From: Flavobacterium supellecticarium
Lineage (GTDB): Bacteria > Bacteroidota > Bacteroidia > Flavobacteriales > Flavobacteriaceae
DNA: 64,000 nt
Reading direction: 5' to 3'
NCBI RefSeq assembly: GCF_004801375.1
Contig: NZ_SSNZ01000004.1
Span: 62,001-126,000, forward strand
Shown: positions 9,006 through 41,110 of the stretch, one piece after another
Layout of the letters: every line of letters starts with the position of its first letter
Position numbering within the stretch: the stretch's first letter is position 1
Notes under the pieces: model-generated
The model's database searches: none
Told to the model about the DNA's origin: nothing
Seen by the model: only the letters and a program-made list of their open reading frames with translations
Position numbers and translations under genes: made by a program

Positions 9006-9890
9006 TTAGCCGGAAACCGTTAACTGCGTTTTCTTTTCGCGCGCCAATACCGAGGTGTAATAACTGCACAGCAGGTCGTATAATATCATTTCACACTGAC
9101 GATTATTGGAATCAAACAAACGATTCATCATCATATGAATATGACTCCCCAACACATCGTCCAAACGTTCCGGTTCCAGCTGTTCCCGTATTGTATTGGC
9201 CACTGTCAAAATAGCACGATTTCTTTCCTGAAGCAATGCTTTTAGGTCGTTTGAATCGGGATCGCTTTTCATAAAACGATCGATTTCATTTTTATGATTC
9301 CGGTATTTGGTACTCAGGTCTTTTTTGGTCGCCGCATTTACCTGAAATTCCTTAAAAAATCCTACTCTAAGATGTTCGACCAGATTTTTTCGTGCTTCCC
9401 TATCATAACCGAACACGTCCAGAAACGAATCGATAGCCACCATTCCAACCATCCATCTTTCATTATCATTATCGGTAAGCTCTAATACGGTAAGTAGTTT
9501 GACAATACATTCGCTATCGTAAAAAAAGAGCGTTTCGGTTTCTTCCATTACCATTTCTCCGTAACGATTCAATTCCCGTTCGTAGGTCTCGGTTTGGATT
9601 TTCCAGATCGTATGCTGCTCCGATAAACGGCGAAAGGTAGCCTGAAAAGCGAGAATTACCATTCCGATATGTTCCGGTTCCGTCAGATGCAATCGCAGTC
9701 GCAAGTGATGTTCCGGATCGGCATAACGGATAAAAAACCATTTATCAATTAATCCGTCGCGTAACAAACCGGTTACCACCGTGTATAAATGGTTGTACAA
9801 AACCGAATCGGTTGTTGCAAAACCGGTATAAATCTTATAATACAGCCATTCTTCCCCTATAAGAAAAGACGTTTTGACATTGTTTTCCAT
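9006..9890 (-). CDS. Lanthipeptide dehydratase, elimination domain (LanB C-terminal, SpaB_C-like)
   Basis: 294 residues. The opening (SFLIGEEWLYYKIYTGFATTDSVLYNHLYTVV) and DKWFFIRYADPEHHLRLRLHL are hallmarks of the thiopeptide-type bacteriocin biosynthesis domain. This domain removes glutamate from glutamylated Ser/Thr to give dehydroalanine or dehydrobutyrine. In firmicute NisB it is fused to the glutamylation domain; here it is a separate gene starting 11 bases after the N-domain gene stops. It is the last gene of the cluster. Confidence 0.88.
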   Translation of the reverse strand: MENNVKTSFLIGEEWLYYKIYTGFATTDSVLYNHLYTVVTGLLRDGLIDKWFFIRYADPEHHLRLRLHLTEPEHIGMVILAFQATFRRLSEQHTIWKIQTETYERELNRYGEMVMEETETLFFYDSECIVKLLTVLELTDNDNERWMVGMVAIDSFLDVFGYDREARKNLVEHLRVGFFKEFQVNAATKKDLSTKYRNHKNEIDRFMKSDPDSNDLKALLQERNRAILTVANTIREQLEPERLDDVLGSHIHMMMNRLFDSNNRQCEMILYDLLCSYYTSVLAREKKTQLTVSG

Positions 9891-9901
9891 TTGGTTCCTT
9901 T

Positions 9902-12121
9902 TTAAGATCGGGTTTTAAAAAAAGAAAAAATAAACTCATTAGCGAAATACTCCGTTTCGTTTCCGCCTACCAGCGTCGCATCGGTTCCCAGAAATTCTTC
10001 CAGCTCGAACACGCTTTTTTTCGCAACAGCCGAAACCAACATCTGAAAGGACGTCAGGTTTTCCAGATTTAATAATAACTTATTATCCCCTTCAACCAAA
10101 AAGACATATTGCGGAATCTTTCGTTCGTCCCGCCATTGGGTAACGTCCGCCAAACCGGAGATCGTATCGATAGTCTTTAGTTTTTCAAATTCGTTGCCCA
10201 ATACTTTCCATTTGGCTTTCGACAGGATAACATTTTCGTATTCCACTCGTGGCAGAAAATTCGATTCGTCGCGGTGAACGCCCCAATTCAAATACAAACC
10301 GCCTCTTTTACCCTGTGCCTGTAAATCGCATAAAAAATGATAGACCGGCAAGGAATTGTGACTGTAATTATGCGCATTGGTGAGTCGCGGTAAAACCTCT
10401 TTATTGTGCTTTCGGGAGCGCACTACAATCCGACCGCTTTTTACCGAAACGTATAAATCGGTTATCGGAAGCTGATTTTCCGTGGGTTTACCCGAAGTCG
10501 CCAGATACGGAATCTCGAATTGTCTGAAATCCGGTCGCATCAATACATTTCCCACCCTGTTTTCGGGTAAATGAATGATTTCTGATACCAATTTATCCGG
10601 ATTGAGTTCTTCTTCCGCCCGGATAATAGTGCGCGCATGTTTGTCCATTTCCGGATCACCCAAACAAAAACGCCCCATCAGATTGGCAGCGCCCGATCCG
10701 CCTACGGATCGAATCACCAACTGCTCCTCTTTTTCGCCTTTTACAACCTCTGCCACTACCGAAAATGTATCCGGAAGGTCATCCCAACCTGCTTCGGTTC
10801 CTTTTAAATCGGCTTCCTCAATCCGGATCACAGCACTTTTATTTTCCCGTGCTTCCTGCATTTTCCGGTATAAAATACTATCAAGTGCCGTCCAGCGCAC
10901 TTCTTTTCGTTTTTGCGTTCCAACATTCGGCACACGGATATTATGCAACAGCGTGTTGATTCCTCCTTTGTAATTATTAACCGGATAACCAATACCCAAT
11001 TCATTATCCAATACCAACGATAACGGAACCTCCCGGTCTTCGTAACGTTGCCGGAACTTTTCCATGAATTGTTGTAACTGCTGATTTTCGTTTTTGGGCG
11101 TTATCCGATTTAATACGGTTATCGCCTTTTTTAGCGGAACTGTTACTTCCTGCGCCAATACATTCCGACTGGCGTTCAGGAACATATCGGTTTGAAAAAT
11201 AAACTTTTCATCAAAAGGGATTTCAAACCGGCGTAGTGTTTCGATCAGATCGTGATAGCGTTCCGGATCATTCCCTAAAGTATGATCAAGTGCGTCTATT
11301 TTTGCAGCAACTTCTTCCAATAGCGACACCAGTGTTTCCGCTCCTTTTATTTTTTTAAGAATGTTAAGCGTTTGTCCTATAAATTCCGTTCCGGAAACGG
11401 AAAGTTCCATTTCACTCACCAATATCTGATTATCGATTAGCTCGTCAATAAATTCAGTTGCTTCCGCTTCGGTAATTTCATCGGAAACCAATGCCTCTGC
11501 CAACACCGATTTTAAAACACCCGTTTGTGCCTGTTTCAGACAATCCCGAATATAATCCGAACCTTCAATCTCGATCAGATGATGGATACGATTTCCGTTT
11601 TTATACAGACATTCCACATAACGGATATGATCACCAATAAAATAAAGACTGGAATTCGGATAATATCGCAGTTGTTCCCGGATCGACGGATTGGTTGTAA
11701 ACGATTGATTTAATGCGCCAACAAAATTCATATCCAAACGGGTATGTCGTTTATTTTGGGTATAATCGGCATTCCGGATAGCATTTTCTTCAGCGAAAGT
11801 TCCTAATCCACAACCGGCAAAAAGCCCAAAAGGAGTCGATCGGGAAGCCATTCGGGTTAGGTATTTCAGAAAAGAGAGACGGATTTTCTGTATTTCTTTT
11901 GGATCCTTACTGTTTCCGGATACCCATTTTTCTATTTCGCGATATAAAACCGGCGAAGCCAGGAAAACGGCTTCTTTTACAACCGGATTTTCAAATTGTT
12001 TTTTTATGTTTTCGTCGGATACCTCTTTTCCCGCTGTCAGTTTCAAAAAATGATCAACCGGTAGCAAAGGCATTCTTAAGACGTAGTTATCAAAGTTTAG
12101 ATAGGGCAATTTTTGTTCCAT
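9902..12121 (-). CDS. Lanthipeptide dehydratase, glutamylation domain (LanB N-terminal)
   Basis: 739 residues. TRMASRSTPFGLFAGCGLG (about residues 90-108) is the family motif near the tRNA-Glu/active-site region, and SHNSLPVYHFLCDLQ and YLNWGVHRDESNFLPRVEYENVILSKAKW are conserved later blocks. The domain transfers glutamate from glutamyl-tRNA to Ser/Thr of the precursor. The elimination domain is encoded by the next gene, so this is a split class I dehydratase. It starts 18 bases after the cyclase gene. Confidence 0.9.
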   Translation of the reverse strand: MEQKLPYLNFDNYVLRMPLLPVDHFLKLTAGKEVSDENIKKQFENPVVKEAVFLASPVLYREIEKWVSGNSKDPKEIQKIRLSFLKYLTRMASRSTPFGLFAGCGLGTFAEENAIRNADYTQNKRHTRLDMNFVGALNQSFTTNPSIREQLRYYPNSSLYFIGDHIRYVECLYKNGNRIHHLIEIEGSDYIRDCLKQAQTGVLKSVLAEALVSDEITEAEATEFIDELIDNQILVSEMELSVSGTEFIGQTLNILKKIKGAETLVSLLEEVAAKIDALDHTLGNDPERYHDLIETLRRFEIPFDEKFIFQTDMFLNASRNVLAQEVTVPLKKAITVLNRITPKNENQQLQQFMEKFRQRYEDREVPLSLVLDNELGIGYPVNNYKGGINTLLHNIRVPNVGTQKRKEVRWTALDSILYRKMQEARENKSAVIRIEEADLKGTEAGWDDLPDTFSVVAEVVKGEKEEQLVIRSVGGSGAANLMGRFCLGDPEMDKHARTIIRAEEELNPDKLVSEIIHLPENRVGNVLMRPDFRQFEIPYLATSGKPTENQLPITDLYVSVKSGRIVVRSRKHNKEVLPRLTNAHNYSHNSLPVYHFLCDLQAQGKRGGLYLNWGVHRDESNFLPRVEYENVILSKAKWKVLGNEFEKLKTIDTISGLADVTQWRDERKIPQYVFLVEGDNKLLLNLENLTSFQMLVSAVAKKSVFELEEFLGTDATLVGGNETEYFANEFIFSFFKTRS

Positions 12122-12139
12122 GTTTATGGTGTTGAATCG

Positions 12140-13354
12140 TTACAAACTAAGGAATACCGCTTTGTCTACCAAAGGCGCTCCCATTGGAGAAAGCGTTGCC
12201 AGATAGGCCGCTGCAACTCCCGAAAGACCTTCGAGCAACGAACTATCGTTTTCTTTGCGTTCGCCTCCATCATAAAGGCAATATCCTATTTCGGAATCGG
12301 CACCGGTTTTATAATCATAGGTTTTTTGCAACCAATAGTCCGCGGTTTCCCGGAACGCTATTTCGCCGGTACGATCATAACTGTTTTTAAACAACAATGC
12401 CAATCCGGCCGTTCCGTGACACAATCCGGCGTCGTGGTGCATTGTTTCAGCGACCAACCTCCGACCGGCTACCTGTTTTAATTTTGTCATTGTTTCTTCC
12501 TGTAAAGCATCGTCCTGTAAGACATCCGCTAATAATAAATGCGTGTGCAAAATCCCAAGATCACCATAACACCAGGCCACTCTTGATGTTTCCGGTTTTG
12601 TCGTCCCGTTTCGATAATCATCTTCTAACAACATCGTCGGATAATATGATTTTATCACACCTAATTCCTGTGTATTGTGGCGGTAAAAATTCAGACTTTC
12701 TTCCAACAATTCTTTACAGGTATCTGTTTGGATATTATGTTTGAGACATTTGCCTAAAAAGTATTGGATTCCGGCATTTCCGTGTGCCAGACCAAAATCA
12801 ATCTTATAGGCTTTTGTTTTAAAAAAATCGAACGTACTCCAATAACAGCGATTTTCTTCTCTTTTGGCCGTTATATTCAGGCGGTCGATAACTTTTTCGG
12901 CATATGTTGACGCTCCTTTTTCTAAAAAATAAAGCGCCATTCCCATCGCGCCATGCAGGATATCCACATGATCCATTTCCAGATTGTCATTCAGATGCTC
13001 TGCAATAATTTCGTCAATTTCTTCGATGATATCTTTATAATCAGCTATATCGATATGCTTTTCTTTTGCCAATTGGTACAAGAGAAACCCATATCCCGCC
13101 AAACCGCCACTAAAAGACGGATAAAAAGCTTCACTTTCCGAAAGTAGGGTATATACTTTATCAATATATTTTCTGAGAATGACAGGATCTACAAGTTCCG
13201 GAAATTGTTTCCGGATAGCTGTCAGTGTGAGAATGATCCCGGGTAATCCGGTATGTAATGCGATTTGGGCGACTTTATTATCACGAAAAAGCAGTGTTTC
13301 GTTTTGCAAATACGCCGCTATTGTATTCAGTTCCTTATAACTATCAAAATTCAT
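12140..13354 (-). CDS. LanC-like lanthionine synthetase (cyclase)
   Basis: 404 residues from the ATG at 13354 (MNFDSYKELN). The longer GTG frame to 13432 would start inside a transcription hairpin; an ATG at 13378 is also possible. Zinc-ligand motifs of LanC are present: WCYGDLG (about residue 270) and CHGTAGLALLF (about 320). GLAGYGFLLYQ and GLAHGNAGIQYFLGKCL are the Gly-rich repeats of the alpha/alpha toroid. It should join Cys thiols of the precursor to dehydrated residues. It is the first gene after the precursor. Confidence 0.92.
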   Translation of the reverse strand: MNFDSYKELNTIAAYLQNETLLFRDNKVAQIALHTGLPGIILTLTAIRKQFPELVDPVILRKYIDKVYTLLSESEAFYPSFSGGLAGYGFLLYQLAKEKHIDIADYKDIIEEIDEIIAEHLNDNLEMDHVDILHGAMGMALYFLEKGASTYAEKVIDRLNITAKREENRCYWSTFDFFKTKAYKIDFGLAHGNAGIQYFLGKCLKHNIQTDTCKELLEESLNFYRHNTQELGVIKSYYPTMLLEDDYRNGTTKPETSRVAWCYGDLGILHTHLLLADVLQDDALQEETMTKLKQVAGRRLVAETMHHDAGLCHGTAGLALLFKNSYDRTGEIAFRETADYWLQKTYDYKTGADSEIGYCLYDGGERKENDSSLLEGLSGVAAAYLATLSPMGAPLVDKAVFLSL

Positions 13355-13389
13355 AAACAAAAGTAGGTTCAAGGTCATTTTTAAATGCA

Positions 13390-13423
13390 AAACCGTTGAA
13401 GAACCGGTATTCTCCAACGGTTT
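13390..13423 (-). terminator. Hairpin between precursor gene and cyclase gene
   Basis: A stem of 14 bp with one mismatch (AAACCGTTGGAGAA with TTCTTCAACGGTTT on the minus strand) and a 6-base loop, ending in TTTT. It lies between the lanthipeptide precursor stop and the LanC start. Such hairpins let the precursor be made in excess over the enzymes by partial termination. Function inferred. Confidence 0.6.
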
Positions 13424-13518
13424 AAATAGCACAATTTTACACTATTGCATATTACAATGCATTTATACAATTATAAATGCGATGGTGTGCAATCGCTATT
13501 TATGCTACGATGCTCTTT

Positions 13519-13749
13519 TTACATCTCCTCCCAAGTATAGGTAGGGCAATAGTGATGTGTGACACATTCGATTTGTATACTCACACAATCCATTCTTGTT
13601 ACTTTAATCCCACAAGGCTCCGGATCAGTCCATTTCACTTCCGTTGCGAAGCTGGCACATGTTTCGTTTGTTCCACCACCCTGGATGTTTGCTTTTTCCT
13701 TATCCGTTAAAACGGAAACTACTTTCTTTTTTAAATTTAATCGTTTCAT
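13519..13749 (-). CDS. lanA: Class I lanthipeptide precursor with GG-type leader
   Basis: 76 residues. The leader MKRLNLKKKVVSVLTDKEK continues to ANIQGGG (residues 20-26), the LKKK...LT..E...I.GG pattern of Bacteroidota lanthipeptide leaders. The core from T27 has five Cys (31, 46, 55, 62, 68) and ten Ser/Thr. Each Cys has a Ser/Thr four or five residues N-terminal: T27-C31, T41-C46, T51-C55, S57-C62, T64-C68. This would allow five small, non-overlapping (methyl)lanthionine rings. It sits just upstream of the cyclase and split dehydratase genes. The ring pattern and product activity are inference. Confidence 0.88.
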   Translation of the reverse strand: MKRLNLKKKVVSVLTDKEKANIQGGGTNETCASFATEVKWTDPEPCGIKVTRMDCVSIQIECVTHHYCPTYTWEEM

Positions 13750-13785: not shown

Positions 13786-13960
13786 GGTATTTACCTTTTT
13801 AAAAACGTTATTTTCCGTTTAGTAAAAACCTAAAAAACAATGCATTTTGAACCATAAAAATTTTTAACAAATCGCATTTGATATTATTAAAAATCTTGTT
13901 TTTTTCAAATTTAAGAAGTTAAAAAACAGGTTCTTATTCGTTTTAAGGGTAATTTTACCC
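13786..13960. promoter_or_regulatory. Two related palindromes between lanA and the XRE gene (possible operators)
   Basis: GGTATTTACC (13786-13795) lies 37 bases upstream of the precursor start, and GGGTAATTTTACCC (13947-13960) lies 60 bases upstream of the XRE regulator start. Both have GGTA/TACC arms. They are placed so that the divergent regulator could bind both promoters. The match is short and the region is AT-rich, so this remains tentative. Confidence 0.35.
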
Positions 13961-14020: not shown

Positions 14021-14386
14021 ATGAATCGGACTGTAGGAGCAAAAATTCGCCATTTGAGAAAAACACGTGGTTATTCACAAGAAGAAGTTGCCGAAAAACT
14101 TAATATCTCCCAATCGGCTTATGCCCGTATCGAAAACGGAGAAAGTCAGTCGTGGGCTTCGCATATTGAACAGCTAAGTACGATCTTTGAAGTTAAGCCT
14201 AAAAGTTTCTTGTCCAAGCAAAAAGAAAGCCCATCAACTAAAAAGCAGAAAGACAAGTTACTGTTTCGGGATAGTCTTCTGGCATTGAACGAAGTCTACC
14301 AAAAATTAATTGATCAATACGAAAAACGTTTACAGGAAAAAGATGAATTGATCACCTTGTTAAAAAGAGAAAAAGACCATTTATAG
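14021..14386 (+). CDS. XRE-family helix-turn-helix transcriptional regulator
   Basis: 121 residues. Residues about 8-62 form an HTH_3 domain (IRHLRKTRGYSQEEVAEKL, SQSAYARIENGES). The C-terminal part (KLIDQYEKRLQEKDELITLLKREK) is a predicted coiled coil, probably for dimerisation. It is divergent from the lanthipeptide precursor and likely controls that cluster; its own target is not shown by sequence. The stop is only about 45 bases from the left end of the IS256 element. Confidence 0.85.
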   Translation: MNRTVGAKIRHLRKTRGYSQEEVAEKLNISQSAYARIENGESQSWASHIEQLSTIFEVKPKSFLSKQKESPSTKKQKDKLLFRDSLLALNEVYQKLIDQYEKRLQEKDELITLLKREKDHL

Positions 14387-14482: not shown

Positions 14483-14518
14483 CATTTTTATGTTTAATTT
14501 TAAATGTTACACAGTCTT

Positions 14519-15715
14519 ATGAAAAAAGAAGATTTATTATCAGAAGAGTTTTTAAAACAGTTCAAAACAGGTGAAGACTTAAATGGTTTTCTTGCCCAAC
14601 TACAAAAACGTGGTTTAGAAGCCATCTTGAATGGTGAGTTAGATGCTCATTTAGGTTACGATAAACACGAAAAATCAACGACATCCAATTCTAGGAACGG
14701 TTATTCCAACAAAAAGGTTAAAACCTCATTTGGAGAATCAGAACTTCAGGTTCCCAGAGACAGAGAAGCTTCTTTCAATCCCATGATAATCCCTAAAAGG
14801 CAAAGTATGGCTGACGGATTGGAAAATGTCATCATATCACTTTATGCAAAAGGAATGAGTGTTAGCGATATTGAAGAGCAGATAAGAGAAGTTTATAATT
14901 TTGATGTATCTACCTCTACTATATCCAGGATTACAGAATCGGTATCCAATGATATTATTGCTTGGCAAAACCGTCCATTAGATCCCGTTTACTTAATTGT
15001 TTGGATGGATGGGATTGTGTTTAAAGTTCGAGAAAGTTCCAAAGTTATTAATAAGACTATCTATTTAGCTGTAGGCCTGAACAAGGATGGTAAAAAGGAA
15101 GTTTTAGGAATGTGGCTGGGTAAGAATGAAAGCGCCAGCTTTTGGTTAGGTGTATTGACTGATCTAAAAGCCAGAGGCGTTGAAGACATCCTCATTACAG
15201 CTACCGACAATTTAAACGGATTTACTCAAACCATTAAAAACGTATTCCCGGAATCTCAAACACAAATCTGTGTTGTTCATCAAATTAGAAACTCAGCCCG
15301 TTATGTAGTCTGGAAAGATAAAAAGGAGTTTTCTAAAGATATGAAACAGGTTTATGATACGCCAACCAAACAAGCTGCAAAAGGAGCTTTGGAAGATTTT
15401 GCCAGCAAATGGAATCATAAATATCCTTATGCGGTTAAATCCTGGGAAGAAAACTGGGAGGAACTTACCGTCTTTTTTGACTTCCCAATTGAAATCAGAA
15501 AAATCATTTACACCACAAATCTAATTGAAAATCTTAATGGGAAAATTAGAAAATATACCAAAAACAAATTGTCATTCCCTACGGATGACGCCGTTTTAAA
15601 ATCCGTATATTTGGCTTTAAGGGAAGCAACCAAAAAATGGTCAATGCCAATCCAAAATTGGGGATTAATTCTCAACCAGTTCTTAACTATATTTGAAAAA
15701 AGGGTTCAACTTTAA
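14519..15715 (+). CDS. IS256-family (mutator-type) transposase
   Basis: 398 residues from the ATG at 14519 ([11 protein letters not shown]). The triad region shows D in [10 protein letters not shown] (about 165), D in ATDNLNGF (about 230) and E in [16 protein letters not shown] (about 345), with the C/H motif CVVHQIRNS between the last two, as in the mutator superfamily. The N-terminal [18 protein letters not shown] and [16 protein letters not shown] blocks are typical. The reading frame is intact. Confidence 0.93.
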
Positions 15716-18919: not shown

Positions 18920-19821
18920 CTATGTTTTAATTAATTTCTTACAGGTTTGCGTTCCATCGTTATGTATTACAGTTCCAAAATAAACTCCCTCAGGAAAAAC
19001 AGACAGATCGATTATATCCGTCGCACTCTTCAACACCAATTGGCCACTTAAATTATAAACCAAAACAACAGCAATCTCTTTCGGGGTCTTTATTCGAAAA
19101 ATACCATTTGATGGATTTGAAAAAACGTTGTACCAACAGTATAAGCATCCAATTCCGGCATCCCTAATTTCACTTCCTCACCTTCAATACTATACGCTGT
19201 AGCAGAAACACCACCATAACCCCATTCCGCATCACCGCTTTGCCATACCAGTGTATCAAATCCGCCACCATCACCATCGTACCAATACCAAATTTTATCT
19301 TCCGGCAAACCATCGGTAGCCACCACCGGAGCAAAAGCCAGCCAATAATAATTATTTTTTGCTTCCAGAACTAATTCTTTACCGGCTAGAGCCAAATCAA
19401 CTGAAACAATAATTTTCTCATCCTCAATCCTTTTTAACAATCCAGGATTGGTATCATCCAGATAAAAATGAGCCAAAGAAGTTCCCGAAAACGGAATTTT
19501 AAACCTATCGTCATAAAGACCTTTATCAAAAACAAACACATGCACTCCTTGTATCAGGGAAATATCTCCGGGAGCCGTTTTACCCATTTGTCCTACAAAA
19601 TTAAATCGGGTGATTTTACTGTTATGTCCAATATAAAAATTATCAGCCAGGATTTTCTTTTGGGTATTCGTAACTGTTGAAATATTATCAACAAAACGAT
19701 ACGGCTTAGTAGCAGGACGGTCTAAAAACGTCGAAACCAGCACTTCCCCTTCTTGTGCCTTCAAAAGCGTAATCGCAAACAGCATGCAAAAAAACAATAA
19801 CCGACATCTTGTTGTTTTCAT
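18920..19821 (-). pseudogene. Frameshifted T9SS-sorted secreted protein (third member of a tandem array)
   Basis: The start at 19821 gives a signal peptide and a domain very similar to its two upstream paralogues (NFYIGHNSKITRFNFVGQMG, GTSLAHFYLDDTNPGLL, DKIWYWYDGDGGGF). After ELDAYTVGT the frame runs into a stop at 19090. In another frame the same DNA continues as NVFSNPSNGIFRIKTPKEI and ends KKLIKT with a stop at 18920, that is, the expected sorting domain. The shift lies at or near the six-A run at 19120-19125; one extra A would restore a 300-residue protein of the same length as its paralogues. It could be a true mutation, slippage-based variation or a sequencing error. Confidence 0.85.
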
Positions 19822-19827
19822 TTTATT

Positions 19828-20745
19828 TTAGATTTTAATTAATTTTTCACAAACCTGTGTACCATCATTACAAGTCACAGTCAATAAATAAATCCCTTTA
19901 GGAGAAGACGACAAATCGATAATTTCCGATGAGTCCTTCAACACTATCTCCCCACTTCCATTATAAACCCTAACGCCAACAATCTCTTTCTCTTTTGGTG
20001 TCGCAATTTTAAAGATATCGCAAGACGGATTGGGATATACCGTTATTACAGCTGTTTGCATATCTAATTCAGAAATTCCTAATACCACTTCTTTACCTTC
20101 GATACTAAAAGCCATCGACCTCGGACTTCCCCCTCTAACAGGGCCCCATTCTGTATCACCATTATTCCATTTTCTAACATAATAACTAGCACCATCTCCT
20201 TCATACCAATACCAGACGCTATCAGCAGGCAAACCATCGGTAGTAATAACCGGAGCAAACGCTATCCAATAAGAACCTGATTCCAAAATCAGTTCTTTTC
20301 CAGCCAGATCCAAATCAACCGAAATAATAATTTTCTCTTTCTCAACTTTTTTTAATAAACCTGCGTTGGCATTATCCAAATAAAAATGCGCCAAAGAAGT
20401 TCCTGAAAACGGAATTTTTTCATGTTTCCCATCGACCTTCTCAAATATATCCTTAAAAATAAATACATGTACTCCTTTAATCTGCGACATATCCCCTGGC
20501 GCAATTAAACCAATTTGTCCCACAAAATTAAACCGGCTAATCTTACTCCTTTTACTCAAAAAATAATTATCCGTCAGTACTCTTTTTTGAGTATTACTAA
20601 CTGTTGAGATACTTGCGGCAAAATCATCTAATTTTTTCACATCATCTAAAGTTGAAAATATTACCTTTTCCTGAGCATTTAATAAATTAACCACAAACAA
20701 ACTACAACAAAGTGCTACCCAATTTTTCACTTTTTTTATTTTCAT
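19828..20745 (-). CDS. Secreted protein with T9SS type A sorting domain (array member 2)
   Basis: 305 residues. A signal peptide ends near LLNAQE. The main domain shares long stretches with both neighbours (STVSNTQKRVLTDNYFLSKRSK, FNFVGQIG, SGSYWIAFAPVITTDGLPADSVWYWYEG). The C-terminal sorting domain begins at ITVYPNPSCDIFKI and ends CEKLIKI. The function of the domain is not recognised; it looks like a cell-surface or extracellular beta-sandwich. It is separated by 6 bases from both neighbours, so the three form one transcription unit arising by tandem duplication. Confidence 0.82.
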   Translation of the reverse strand: MKIKKVKNWVALCCSLFVVNLLNAQEKVIFSTLDDVKKLDDFAASISTVSNTQKRVLTDNYFLSKRSKISRFNFVGQIGLIAPGDMSQIKGVHVFIFKDIFEKVDGKHEKIPFSGTSLAHFYLDNANAGLLKKVEKEKIIISVDLDLAGKELILESGSYWIAFAPVITTDGLPADSVWYWYEGDGASYYVRKWNNGDTEWGPVRGGSPRSMAFSIEGKEVVLGISELDMQTAVITVYPNPSCDIFKIATPKEKEIVGVRVYNGSGEIVLKDSSEIIDLSSSPKGIYLLTVTCNDGTQVCEKLIKI

Positions 20746-20751
20746 TTTATT

Positions 20752-21642
20752 TTATGTTTTAATTAATTTTTCACGAACCTGTGTACCATCATTACAAGTC
20801 ATAGTCAAAAAATAAATTCCTTTAGGAGAAGCCGACAAATCAACAGTTTCCGACTGGCTCTGCAACACCAATTGTCCGTTTCCATTATACACCACAACAG
20901 AAACAATCTCTTTTGGTGTACTAATTTTAAAAACATCATACGAAGGATTAGGATACACCTTTGCAGTAACGGTTTGTATATCCGATTTTGAAATTCCCAA
21001 CGTTACTTTTTTACCTTCAATACTAAAAGCTACGGATCCGGAACCTGTTGATGACCAACCGCCATTGTCCCATACTACTGCTTCGTTGCCGAAATCGGTT
21101 CCCGGAAACCAGCTCCATACTTTATCGGGTGACATTCCCTCTGTAGCAATTATCGGCGCAAAGGCAATTCCATATGTTCCCGCTTCAAGTATCATATCAA
21201 ATCCGAGCGATTTTATATCGATACCAATTATAACCTGATCTCCTTGCTGTATTATTTTTAATCCCGGAGCATACTCCCGTATCAGCTCAAAATAATTCAA
21301 ACTGCTTGCTTCAGATAATGGCTGACCAGTAGTAAACGCTCTAAGAATATACAACCGTACTCCTTTAATTAATGCTATGTTTTCGGGCGTTGCTTTTCCG
21401 AGTTGCCCAACAAAATTAAATTGAGTGATCTGACTCTTTTTTGACAATTTAAAATCATCCATTATAATCAATTCCTTTGTATTCGTAATTGTTGAAAGGT
21501 TTGGTGCGAGAGGCACAGGTTTTCTAACCTCATCCAACGTTGAAAACAACACTTCTTGTCCCAGACTTGGCAACCCACACAGCATCGTTAAACCATAAAA
21601 CAACACCGGCAGGCATTTTTTCAGTTTTATTTTTCTTCTCAT
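20752..21642 (-). CDS. Secreted protein with T9SS type A sorting domain (array member 1)
   Basis: 296 residues from the ATG at 21642 (MRRKIKLKKC), which gives a normal basic-hydrophobic signal peptide ending at SLGQE; an in-frame ATG at 21669 would lengthen it. Shared paralogue features are LSTITNTKELIIMDDFKLSKKSQ, FNFVGQLG, AGTYGIAFAPIIATEG and the sorting domain KVYPNPSYDVFKIST...REKLIKT. The middle of the domain is the most diverged of the three. It is the first gene of the array; the promoter was not identified. Confidence 0.8.
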   Translation of the reverse strand: MRRKIKLKKCLPVLFYGLTMLCGLPSLGQEVLFSTLDEVRKPVPLAPNLSTITNTKELIIMDDFKLSKKSQITQFNFVGQLGKATPENIALIKGVRLYILRAFTTGQPLSEASSLNYFELIREYAPGLKIIQQGDQVIIGIDIKSLGFDMILEAGTYGIAFAPIIATEGMSPDKVWSWFPGTDFGNEAVVWDNGGWSSTGSGSVAFSIEGKKVTLGISKSDIQTVTAKVYPNPSYDVFKISTPKEIVSVVVYNGNGQLVLQSQSETVDLSASPKGIYFLTMTCNDGTQVREKLIKT

Positions 21643-21993
21643 ATTCAAAATATTTAATACGTTCATCAACTAAATTACACAAACTTAGTAGCAACGGCGA
21701 AGACAATTCAACATGCAAAACAGACAAATAACTCTATTTTATCATTGCTCAAAATAGTGGACAAAAAGCGAATACCTCTTTAAGTCATATTATTATTCCA
21801 TAACACTATTGGAGCCAATATGAGCAAACCGGACAAAAAACAAACATCCCATAAACAAATCACTACAACAGATTAATAATAAATATTTTTAACAAAAAAA
21901 ATAATATTCTTTAAAATTATTGTTAATTAAAAATCAATTAGCTAATTCTATTATATTTGTTATACAAAACATAAACATTTGAGTAACAATCAC
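21643..21993. other. Divergent intergenic region with one plus-strand -7 box
   Basis: About 350 AT-rich bases between the T9SS array and the diheme cytochrome gene. TATATTTG at 21952-21959 fits the -7 consensus for the plus-strand gene. No other element was recognised. Confidence 0.4.
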
Positions 21994-39884: not shown

Positions 39885-40277
39885 ATGAAAGACAAAGAAA
39901 GCAAGGCTATTAAGCGTAGTCAAAAGGATTATAACATGGCTTTTAAATTAGCTGTAATTACCCGAGTTGAACAAGGTGAAATGACTTATAGGCAGGCTCA
40001 ATCTATTTATGGAATCCAGGGAAGAAGTACTGTTTTGGTTTGGCTTCGAAAATATGGTAACTTAGATTGGAGTAAACCAAATCTGTTATTTATGTCTAAA
40101 TCTAAAGAAACCCCGGCTCAAATTATTAAACGATTAGAGAAAGAACTGGCCGATGAGAAACTTCGAAATAAGATTCTCAATACGATGATCGACATTTCTG
40201 ATAGTCAGTACGGGACTCAGATCCGAAAAAAGTTTTCTCCCAAACCATCTTCCGACTCCGGGAAGGAGCAGGAATAA
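39885..40277 (+). CDS. IS3-family transposase OrfA
   Basis: 130 residues with an HTH region (MTYRQAQSIYGIQGRSTVLVWLRKYG) for binding the ends and a helical zipper-like C-terminal part (AQIIKRLEKELADEKLRNKILNTMIDI). It is translated alone as a repressor-like product or joined to OrfB by -1 frameshifting at 40226-40232. Confidence 0.92.
   Translation: MKDKESKAIKRSQKDYNMAFKLAVITRVEQGEMTYRQAQSIYGIQGRSTVLVWLRKYGNLDWSKPNLLFMSKSKETPAQIIKRLEKELADEKLRNKILNTMIDISDSQYGTQIRKKFSPKPSSDSGKEQE
40226..40232 (+). promoter_or_regulatory. Programmed -1 frameshift heptamer A_AAA_AAG
   Basis: The heptamer is placed exactly in the zero frame of OrfA (codons at 40227 and 40230). Slipping back one base enters the orfB frame, which is open from 40205, and reads VFSQTIFRLREGAGISLSKS into OrfB. 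It would produce the OrfAB transposase. Confidence 0.85.
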
Positions 40278-40279
40278 GT

Positions 40280-41110
40280 TTGTCCAAAAGTTGCCGATTG
40301 TTTGGGATGAGTAGACAAGCTATATATCAGGAACAAAAAAGAATCTTCCATCGGGAATCTACCTTACTCAAAGTAAAGCATCTGGTTCTTTCTTTGCGAT
40401 TGGAAATGCCACGTATAGGAACACGTAAACTATATTACCTACTTTCGAAGCAATTTGATCAACAGGGTGTAAAGATAGGTCGTGATGCTTTATTTGATTA
40501 TCTAAGAAGGGAGAAGTTACTTGTTAAACCAATGAAGAGTTACACTAAAACCACCTATTCTAAACATTGGCTACACAAGTACGAAAATCTTTTGAAAGAA
40601 TGTGAAATTAACCGTCCCGAACAGGTATACGTTAGTGATATTACTTATATCAAATCACATCAGAAAACGCATTATCTATCTTTAGTTACTGATGCTTATA
40701 GTAGAAAAATAATGGGATACAAACTCAGTGATGATATGAGTTCTGAAAATGTGGTACAGGCATTAAAAATGGCTGTACAGAATAGAAAATCAACATTACC
40801 ACTGATACATCACTCCGATAGAGGATTACAATATTGTTCTAAAATTTATCAGGAAGTATTAGCTAAAAACGGTATTACGCCCTCTATGACCGACGGATAT
40901 GATTGTTATCAGAATGCCTTAGCTGAGAAAATAAACGGAATTTTAAAAAACGAATTTTTGATTTATAAATGTAAAGACGGACAAACATTAGAAAAACTCA
41001 TAAAAACAGCAATACAAACCTATAATAATAAAAGACCACATTTGAGTCTGAAAATGAAAACACCTAACTTTATACATCAAAAAAACCAGCCAGAAAACCT
41101 GACTGGTTAA
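40280..41110 (+). CDS. IS3-family transposase OrfB (DDE integrase domain)
   Basis: 276 residues from a TTG at 40280; in practice made as the OrfAB fusion by -1 frameshift, so no initiation here is needed. N-terminal HTH_21-like region (LRLEMPRIGTRKLYYLL), then the rve domain with D in VYVSDITYIKS (about 120), D in IHHSDRGLQYCS (about 178) and E in NALAEKINGILKNEF (about 214). All three catalytic residues are present and the frame is intact. Confidence 0.92.
   Translation: MSKSCRLFGMSRQAIYQEQKRIFHRESTLLKVKHLVLSLRLEMPRIGTRKLYYLLSKQFDQQGVKIGRDALFDYLRREKLLVKPMKSYTKTTYSKHWLHKYENLLKECEINRPEQVYVSDITYIKSHQKTHYLSLVTDAYSRKIMGYKLSDDMSSENVVQALKMAVQNRKSTLPLIHHSDRGLQYCSKIYQEVLAKNGITPSMTDGYDCYQNALAEKINGILKNEFLIYKCKDGQTLEKLIKTAIQTYNNKRPHLSLKMKTPNFIHQKNQPENLTG

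Follow-up and report, generated by a model that had tools for sequence, protein, structure and literature searches.

Can four adjacent genes, with neither an exporter nor a leader protease beside them, make a lanthipeptide, and where in the genome would the remaining steps be carried out? The question is raised by a 64,000-nucleotide stretch of Flavobacterium supellecticarium DNA (contig NZ_SSNZ01000004.1, positions 62,001 to 126,000; hereafter the window), in which a first-pass annotation had described a compact class I lanthipeptide cluster with a split dehydratase: a precursor (LanA), the cyclase LanC, and the glutamylation and elimination parts of LanB as separate proteins (LanB-N and LanB-C). 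All four open reading frames (ORFs) are found in this order on the minus strand, and the enzyme genes are separated by 18 and 11 bases, as claimed (Table 1). The compact gene row is thus real, but as a cluster it is incomplete, as no exporter or leader protease is recognised beside it. We designate the genome of this strain G000 and the contig of the window C4; G382 and similar handles denote other genomes compared.

In a Pfam scan, LanC matches LANC_like (156 bits), LanB-N matches Lant_dehydr_N (520 bits) and LanB-C matches Lant_dehydr_C (242 bits), both LanB matches extending over the full profile; NCBIfam places LanB-C among the thiopeptide-type bacteriocin biosynthesis proteins (226 bits). 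Residues 42-738 of LanB-N align with NisB (6m7y, E-value 6.6e-30) and keep two Arg (one before and one in RSTPFG), as well as the Asp in FQTDM and the Arg in MGRF. The alignment of LanB-C with NisB (including 4wd9) has E-values of 8.6e-12 and 2.9e-11, with RLR, E106, R109 and the HIHMMMN His in place. These motif residues are the catalytic ones of LanB enzymes; for Arg109, which aligns with Arg826 of NisB, a passage of PMC9486935 describes the NisB residue as a mark of anti-eliminating glutamate lyases. The LanC motifs HGNAG, AWCYG and CHG align with the solved LanC-like chains 8byk_A and 6wq1_A, the last two motifs holding the Cys and the Cys-His of the metal site. As both the Arg marker and the LanC motifs are kept, anti dehydration followed by LanC cyclisation is expected. 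The profile matches and the NisB and LanC alignments support the class I assignment with a split dehydratase, and we consider it probable that the row is a working locus for lanthipeptide biosynthesis from a double-glycine (GG) leader. Stand-alone LanB-N would activate Ser and Thr of the core with glutamate from glutamyl-tRNA, stand-alone LanB-C would eliminate glutamate to leave dehydroalanine or dehydrobutyrine (Dha or Dhb), and LanC would join the five Cys to these residues, most simply in five successive small rings. A C39 peptidase exporter would then cut after Gly-Gly and export the product.

The split between the two LanB proteins does not result from a frameshift in a single gene: both domains are complete, each covers its full profile, and the same division is observed in G382. 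The end of lanC at 12140 was correctly placed, but the listed GTG start at 13432, which lies upstream of a terminator-like hairpin, was wrong. Alignment of both loci points to an ATG at 13354 common to the window and G382, from which the two proteins alike have 404 residues. With this start, the spacing between lanA and lanC is 164 bases.

The leader of LanA carries L4, L6, K8 and L14 followed by G24-G25-G26, and thus has the LxLxKx5L motif and the GG end. Such leaders, many of them ending in GG, occur together with split LanBs in the set of Bacteroidota class I precursors outlined in a passage of Walker et al. 2020 (PMC7268733). The core has 50 residues, including ten Ser/Thr and five Cys. 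It had been noted that each Cys has a Ser or Thr four or five residues before it (T27-C31, T41-C46, T51-C55, S57-C62 and T64-C68); the numbering is correct and the pattern holds for all five. By chance, it arises in 0.32% of 200,000 shuffled cores and in 0.25% when the Cys are held fixed; allowing any pair of adjacent offsets from 2 to 8 raises these figures to 1.7% and 1.1%, respectively.

The proposal of five small, non-overlapping rings is therefore plausible, better than chance and, as described below, preserved in one relative, but ring topology is not readable from sequence. The simplest map, with rings T27-C31, T41-C46, T51-C55, S57-C62 and T64-C68 in succession, is favoured by the spacing. 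The same biosynthesis could also lead to another map, in which Cys react with other Ser/Thr or some Ser/Thr are left unmodified, giving overlapping or fewer than five rings; for example, T30 or S33 might pair with C31, or T36 with the second Cys. Ser and Thr outnumber Cys ten to five, T30 directly precedes C31, T36 also lies nine residues before the second Cys in G382, and a Pedobacter class I lanthipeptide paper announces an 'unusual ring pattern' in its title. Furthermore, the spacing argument stands at only 1.1-1.7% once the choice of offset is allowed for. On the other side, T41 is the only Ser/Thr within nine residues before the second Cys in the window, and all five partners at -4/-5 are retained in G382; we regard a different ring map as possible and the less likely of the outcomes. 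The first-pass annotation also called five separate rings an unusual architecture compared with nisin, which was not borne out. Nisin itself combines separate and interlocked rings. Reading of the core reveals neither of the lipid II motifs SxxxCTP(G/S)C and TxTxEC, as given in a passage of PMC7268733. The segment S57-I-Q-I-E-C62 (window 13564-13581, in lanA), which reads S-V-K-I-E-C in G382, is similar to the last part of TxTxEC but falls short of the motif.

The locus is found at the same place in G382, with shared outer neighbors: on one side a pseudouridine synthase gene and, by eye, VOC and dienelactone-hydrolase-like genes; on the other an XRE-type regulator gene and, by eye, RmuC-like and thioesterase-like genes. 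The G382 precursor is 84% identical to that of the window. All 26 leader residues are identical, as are all 15 Ser, Thr and Cys of the core, the 12 differences falling among the other 34 aligned positions (hypergeometric probability 0.006). One missing residue in G382 shortens the T41-C46 spacing from five to four, both partners being kept. Ratios of non-synonymous to synonymous substitution rates (dN/dS) are 0.13 for LanA, 0.14 for LanC, 0.13 for LanB-N and 0.07 for LanB-C, compared with 0.035-0.087 for six neighbors; all are rough values, dS being about 1 or above throughout. The four proteins are kept by selection. The precursor itself is narrowly distributed. In a sample of 60 genomes of relatives (37 of the genus, including G000, and 23 of the order), LanA is found only in G000, and in a survey of the genus (398 genomes, taken from a larger group), six genomes including G000 have matches at E <= 0.01, with the whole core matched only by G382.

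In the same 398 genomes, Lant_dehydr_C yields 117 matches in 76 genomes. Of these, 106 were typed by frame length, 70 as split and 36 as fused; ten others were excluded as partial or broken, and the partial short-frame match G175:C30 was kept. One further short-frame match, G396:C181, is outside the 70 and included in the 71 split matches considered hereafter. A LanC match lies within 8 kb of only 18 of them (in 16 genomes), and within 20 kb of 20, so that split LanB-C genes of the genus cannot be equated with lanthipeptide clusters. Similarly, the stretches around 15 named relatives of LanB-C (L009-L023) have no LanC or LanA match when searched with the window LanC and three other LanC queries. 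As most split LanB-C genes lack LanC, the family evidently serves other pathways as well.

This distribution raises the question of whether LanB-N and LanB-C of the window might perform another chemistry: addition of amino acids, formation of dehydro residues without rings, or a thiopeptide-like cycloaddition. LanB-like proteins with the first two roles are known. Cycloaddition relatives of LanB are also mentioned in a passage of PMC7268733, and the separation from LanC, in 53 of 71 split matches and all 15 named relatives' stretches, goes in the same direction. However, the window has a LanC with metal-site motifs in the same gene row, five core Cys with Ser/Thr partners, and the anti-lyase Arg in LanB-C, which makes another chemistry very improbable here. 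We therefore retain lanthipeptide formation.

The locus type is uncommon but already known, and the core sequence is new, although of a known kind. Split-LanB lanthipeptides are called a rare subtype in a passage of PMC9011353. Pinensins from Chitinophaga pinensis are, as in the window, Bacteroidota class I lanthipeptides with a split LanB (passages of PMC7268733 and PMC9011353); their cluster, likened here by description, spans 24 kb (passage of PMC8358304) versus about 4.7 kb in the window. PedA15.2 from Pedobacter lusitanus, compared through a review passage, is also a Bacteroidota class I precursor; LahT150, a C39 protease domain, was used to cleave off its leader. The actinobacterial SapT system combines a split LanB with LanC as in the window (passage of PMC9011353), but its lyase is of the syn type and lacks an Arg at the position of NisB Arg826, where LanB-C has one. 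The LxLxKx5L precursor group of Walker et al. shares the leader motif and GG end with LanA and includes split LanBs; its clusters 'often' include a C39 protease according to a passage of that paper, whereas none is linked in the window. Within the genus, G225, G185 and G218 have the same leader type, with lanA beside lanC and lanB-N beside lanB-C. They differ from the window by a gene of 562-568 residues between lanC and lanB-N (an S41-peptidase match in G225, where it was tested), by a C39 exporter gene after lanB-C, and by their cores. As for the core, the first-pass annotation knew of no product containing it. Three core or leader strings are found in no main text of the literature searched (figures and supplements lay outside the search).

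Where, then, could the leader be cut and the product exported? The absence of a linked exporter does not make the locus exceptional. Of the 18 loci combining split LanB and LanC, at least ten have a C39 match within 20 kb and at most eight, including the window and G382, have none listed; the matches span 56 of the 76 LanB-C genomes, and 21 of them, on relevant contigs, were typed. Furthermore, a passage of PMC8960859 provides a precedent for lanthipeptide proteases encoded outside the cluster. The two C39 exporters (PCATs) of G000 are only 30% identical to each other, and the one on contig C5 sits beside a fused LanB. That on C2 is 95% identical to its G382 counterpart, 76-78% identical to the cluster-linked exporters of G225, G121 and G004, and 65% identical to that of G185. 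We infer that this unlinked PCAT-HlyD pair is the best candidate exporter. Besides the C39 exporter, its locus (L030:4963-13095, minus strand) contains HlyD, a GG-type ORF and a relative of VKOR-thioredoxin proteins, the last called from the Pfam match of a 71% identical G382 protein. At each of eight additional exporter loci, HlyD and a VKOR relative lie close by, and GG-type ORFs were found at three of the eight. In G000 and G382, the exporter lies between genes named miaB and topA by eye, both of them seen in G382, which is not so in the eight other loci. Other GG-type ORFs occur in the related exporter loci L099, L100 and L102 elsewhere in the genus.

An unlinked exporter copy, defined by at least 70% identity and a distance of more than 20 kb from any LanB-C, is present in 21 of 23 split-LanB genomes, as compared to 22 of 121 genomes without LanB-C, in a set of 150 (taken to be G000-G149). 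Fisher's test values of 1e-6 to 1e-11 overstate this difference, since the species are related and genome size is uncontrolled. The split-LanB genomes with the exporter include all eight with LanC beside LanB and 13 of the 15 without, so that the association is with split LanB and not with lanthipeptides as such. Split-LanB loci across the genus may borrow this unlinked exporter.

On C5 (L029:14641-18640, minus strand), we observed a tandem array in which twenty ORFs encode GG-leader peptides; fifteen of the ORFs are near-identical. The array lies downstream of HlyD, PCAT and fused LanB (1071 amino acids) genes; C5 contains no LanC, and G382 has a similar array.

A search with the leader in G000 and G382 returned two genes in each, scoring 59-64 bits against 17 for the best remaining match. 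The second precursor, LanA2, has 72 residues (G000:C1:632083-632298, corresponding to L028:9080-9298, minus strand) and shares 77% identity with LanA in the leader. Its core is unlike that of LanA: it contains three Cys, preceded by Ser/Thr at -4, -5 and -3, a pattern that arises in 2.0% of shuffled cores. The G382 counterpart (C1:2762015-2762233) is 88% identical. LanA2 matches at E <= 0.01 occur in eight of the 398 genomes; full-length ones are restricted to G000 and G382, the two genomes with lanA. Weak matches in G290 and G321 were rejected: they leave the leader uncovered, no fitting ORF is listed in G290 (L072), and that of G321 has two internal stops. In G000, the two LanB-C matches are on C4 and C5, and the two LanC matches on C4 and C10, with none on C1, the LanA2 contig; the LanA2 neighbors, in the part scanned, are BspA-type leucine-rich repeat proteins and others that lack significant Pfam matches. 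The common leader and the co-occurrence of the two precursors suggest that they use common enzymes, the two related genomes counting as one observation of co-occurrence.

We may thus hypothesize a pathway distributed over three unlinked places, where the C4 enzymes would modify both LanA and LanA2 and the C2 protein, a general exporter of GG peptides, would mature both. Dehydration, the ring map, leader cleavage and export in trans are all steps that we infer, and the hypothesis is tentative: we rate it below even chances, partly because the exporter goes equally with split LanB in genomes that have no LanC beside it. The two products may act together; for the LanA product, an antimicrobial directed against neighbors is our default guess. 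Genome mining expects precursor, enzymes and exporter to be adjacent; it would miss the second likely substrate here and would have to look for the exporter in other parts of the genome. If true, the hypothesis would provide a defined precursor pair and a named exporter for studying the maturation of Gram-negative lanthipeptides with incomplete clusters.

Several results weigh against the reading as a working class I lanthipeptide locus. The Pfam scan recognised no exporter, protease or immunity gene among the genes between 8379 and 15715, and no C39 match exists on C4, the only two of the genome being those on C2 and C5. The C2 locus carries its own GG-type ORF, and such exporters are also present where LanB-C is absent (22 of 121 genomes), which implies that this one is not dedicated to lanthipeptides. 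A check of the precursor against the NCBIfam hidden Markov model NF038153 (lant_leader_L1a), as the first-pass annotation had proposed, gives 18.6 bits (E-value 0.0016), below the curated cut-off of 22 bits. Finally, core conservation is that of one species pair, and lanA, lanC and lanB-N evolve faster than the neighboring genes.

Such observations could reflect a cluster in decay, left without its exporter and no longer yielding a product. In addition to the absent linked exporter and the higher dN/dS of lanA, lanC and lanB-N, this explanation could draw on an IS256-family transposase gene (window 14504-15715, plus strand, 432 bits) directly past the XRE gene; in G382, no ORF of at least 120 residues is present at this position, between the XRE and RmuC-like genes. 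However, the reading frames are open and the catalytic motifs intact, dN/dS remains at 0.07-0.14 for the four genes, and core and hairpin are kept in G382, itself without a linked exporter, as are up to eight of the 18 comparable loci. Decay is therefore unlikely, and a functional locus remains our preferred interpretation.

The intergenic regions contain elements that might regulate this locus. The hairpin between lanA and lanC has a 15-bp stem (-19.5 kcal/mol, z-score -6.0). In G382, a G-U pair is replaced by G-C, pairing is maintained and the loop differs. Possibly, it represents a partial terminator keeping the precursor in excess over the enzymes; a consensus scanner does not list it. The XRE gene occupies the same divergent position in G382, where its product is 87% identical. 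G225 and G218 likewise have HTH_3 genes that diverge from lanA; at the lanA locus of G185, none was seen. The XRE-proximal intergenic block is well conserved between the window and G382. The -7 box of Bacteroidota promoters has the pattern TAnnTTTG. This pattern occurs 81 times in the window for 77 expected, and a sigma-70 promoter scan finds four sites for 4.0 expected. As both scans are at chance level, the lanA promoter in Table 1 is only a suggestion. The first-pass annotation had overlooked the XRE gene, the hairpin, the later lanC start, the lack of an exporter on the contig and the second precursor elsewhere.

Table 1. Features of the lanthipeptide locus and its flanking region, in window coordinates
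Feature	Position	Strand	Basis and remarks
lanA, precursor, 76 aa	13519..13749	-	ORF; leader residues 1-25/26 (MKRLNLKKKVVSVLTDKEKANIQGG/G), core 26/27-76
lanC, cyclase, 404 aa	12140..13354	-	PF05147, 156 bits; start by alignment with G382
lanB glutamylation protein (LanB-N), 739 aa	9902..12121	-	PF04738, 520 bits, full profile; NisB alignment
lanB elimination protein (LanB-C, glutamate lyase), 294 aa	9006..9890	-	PF14028, 242 bits, full profile; marker Arg of anti-type lyases
Terminator-like hairpin with short 3' T run	13390..13423	-	lanA-lanC intergenic region; folding
Divergent XRE-type regulator gene, possible lanA regulator	14021..14386	+	HTH_3, 46.8 bits
TAAATTTG, possible Bacteroidota -7 box for lanA	13906..13913	-	Pattern match; identical in G382
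Short inverted repeat GGGTAATTTTACCC, possible XRE operator	13947..13960		One base differs in G382

Elsewhere in the genome, contig C10 contains a row of genes for LanC (228 bits), a HopA1-like protein (120 bits) and an APH-like kinase (36 bits) (L076:9386-12667, minus strand), which adjoins a 459-residue ORF without a Pfam match; a LanC match is also found at G382:C1:3332324. This enzyme combination is that of class V lanthipeptides; the literature searched yielded no paper associating lanthipeptides and HopA1 in Bacteroidetes. Farther along the window, three tandem paralogs at 19090-21669 (minus strand) encode secreted-looking proteins, two of which have a similar C-terminal end, maybe a type IX secretion system sorting domain as judged by eye. 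Two adjoining ORFs at 39885-41110 (plus strand) resemble, also by eye, an IS3-type transposase pair.

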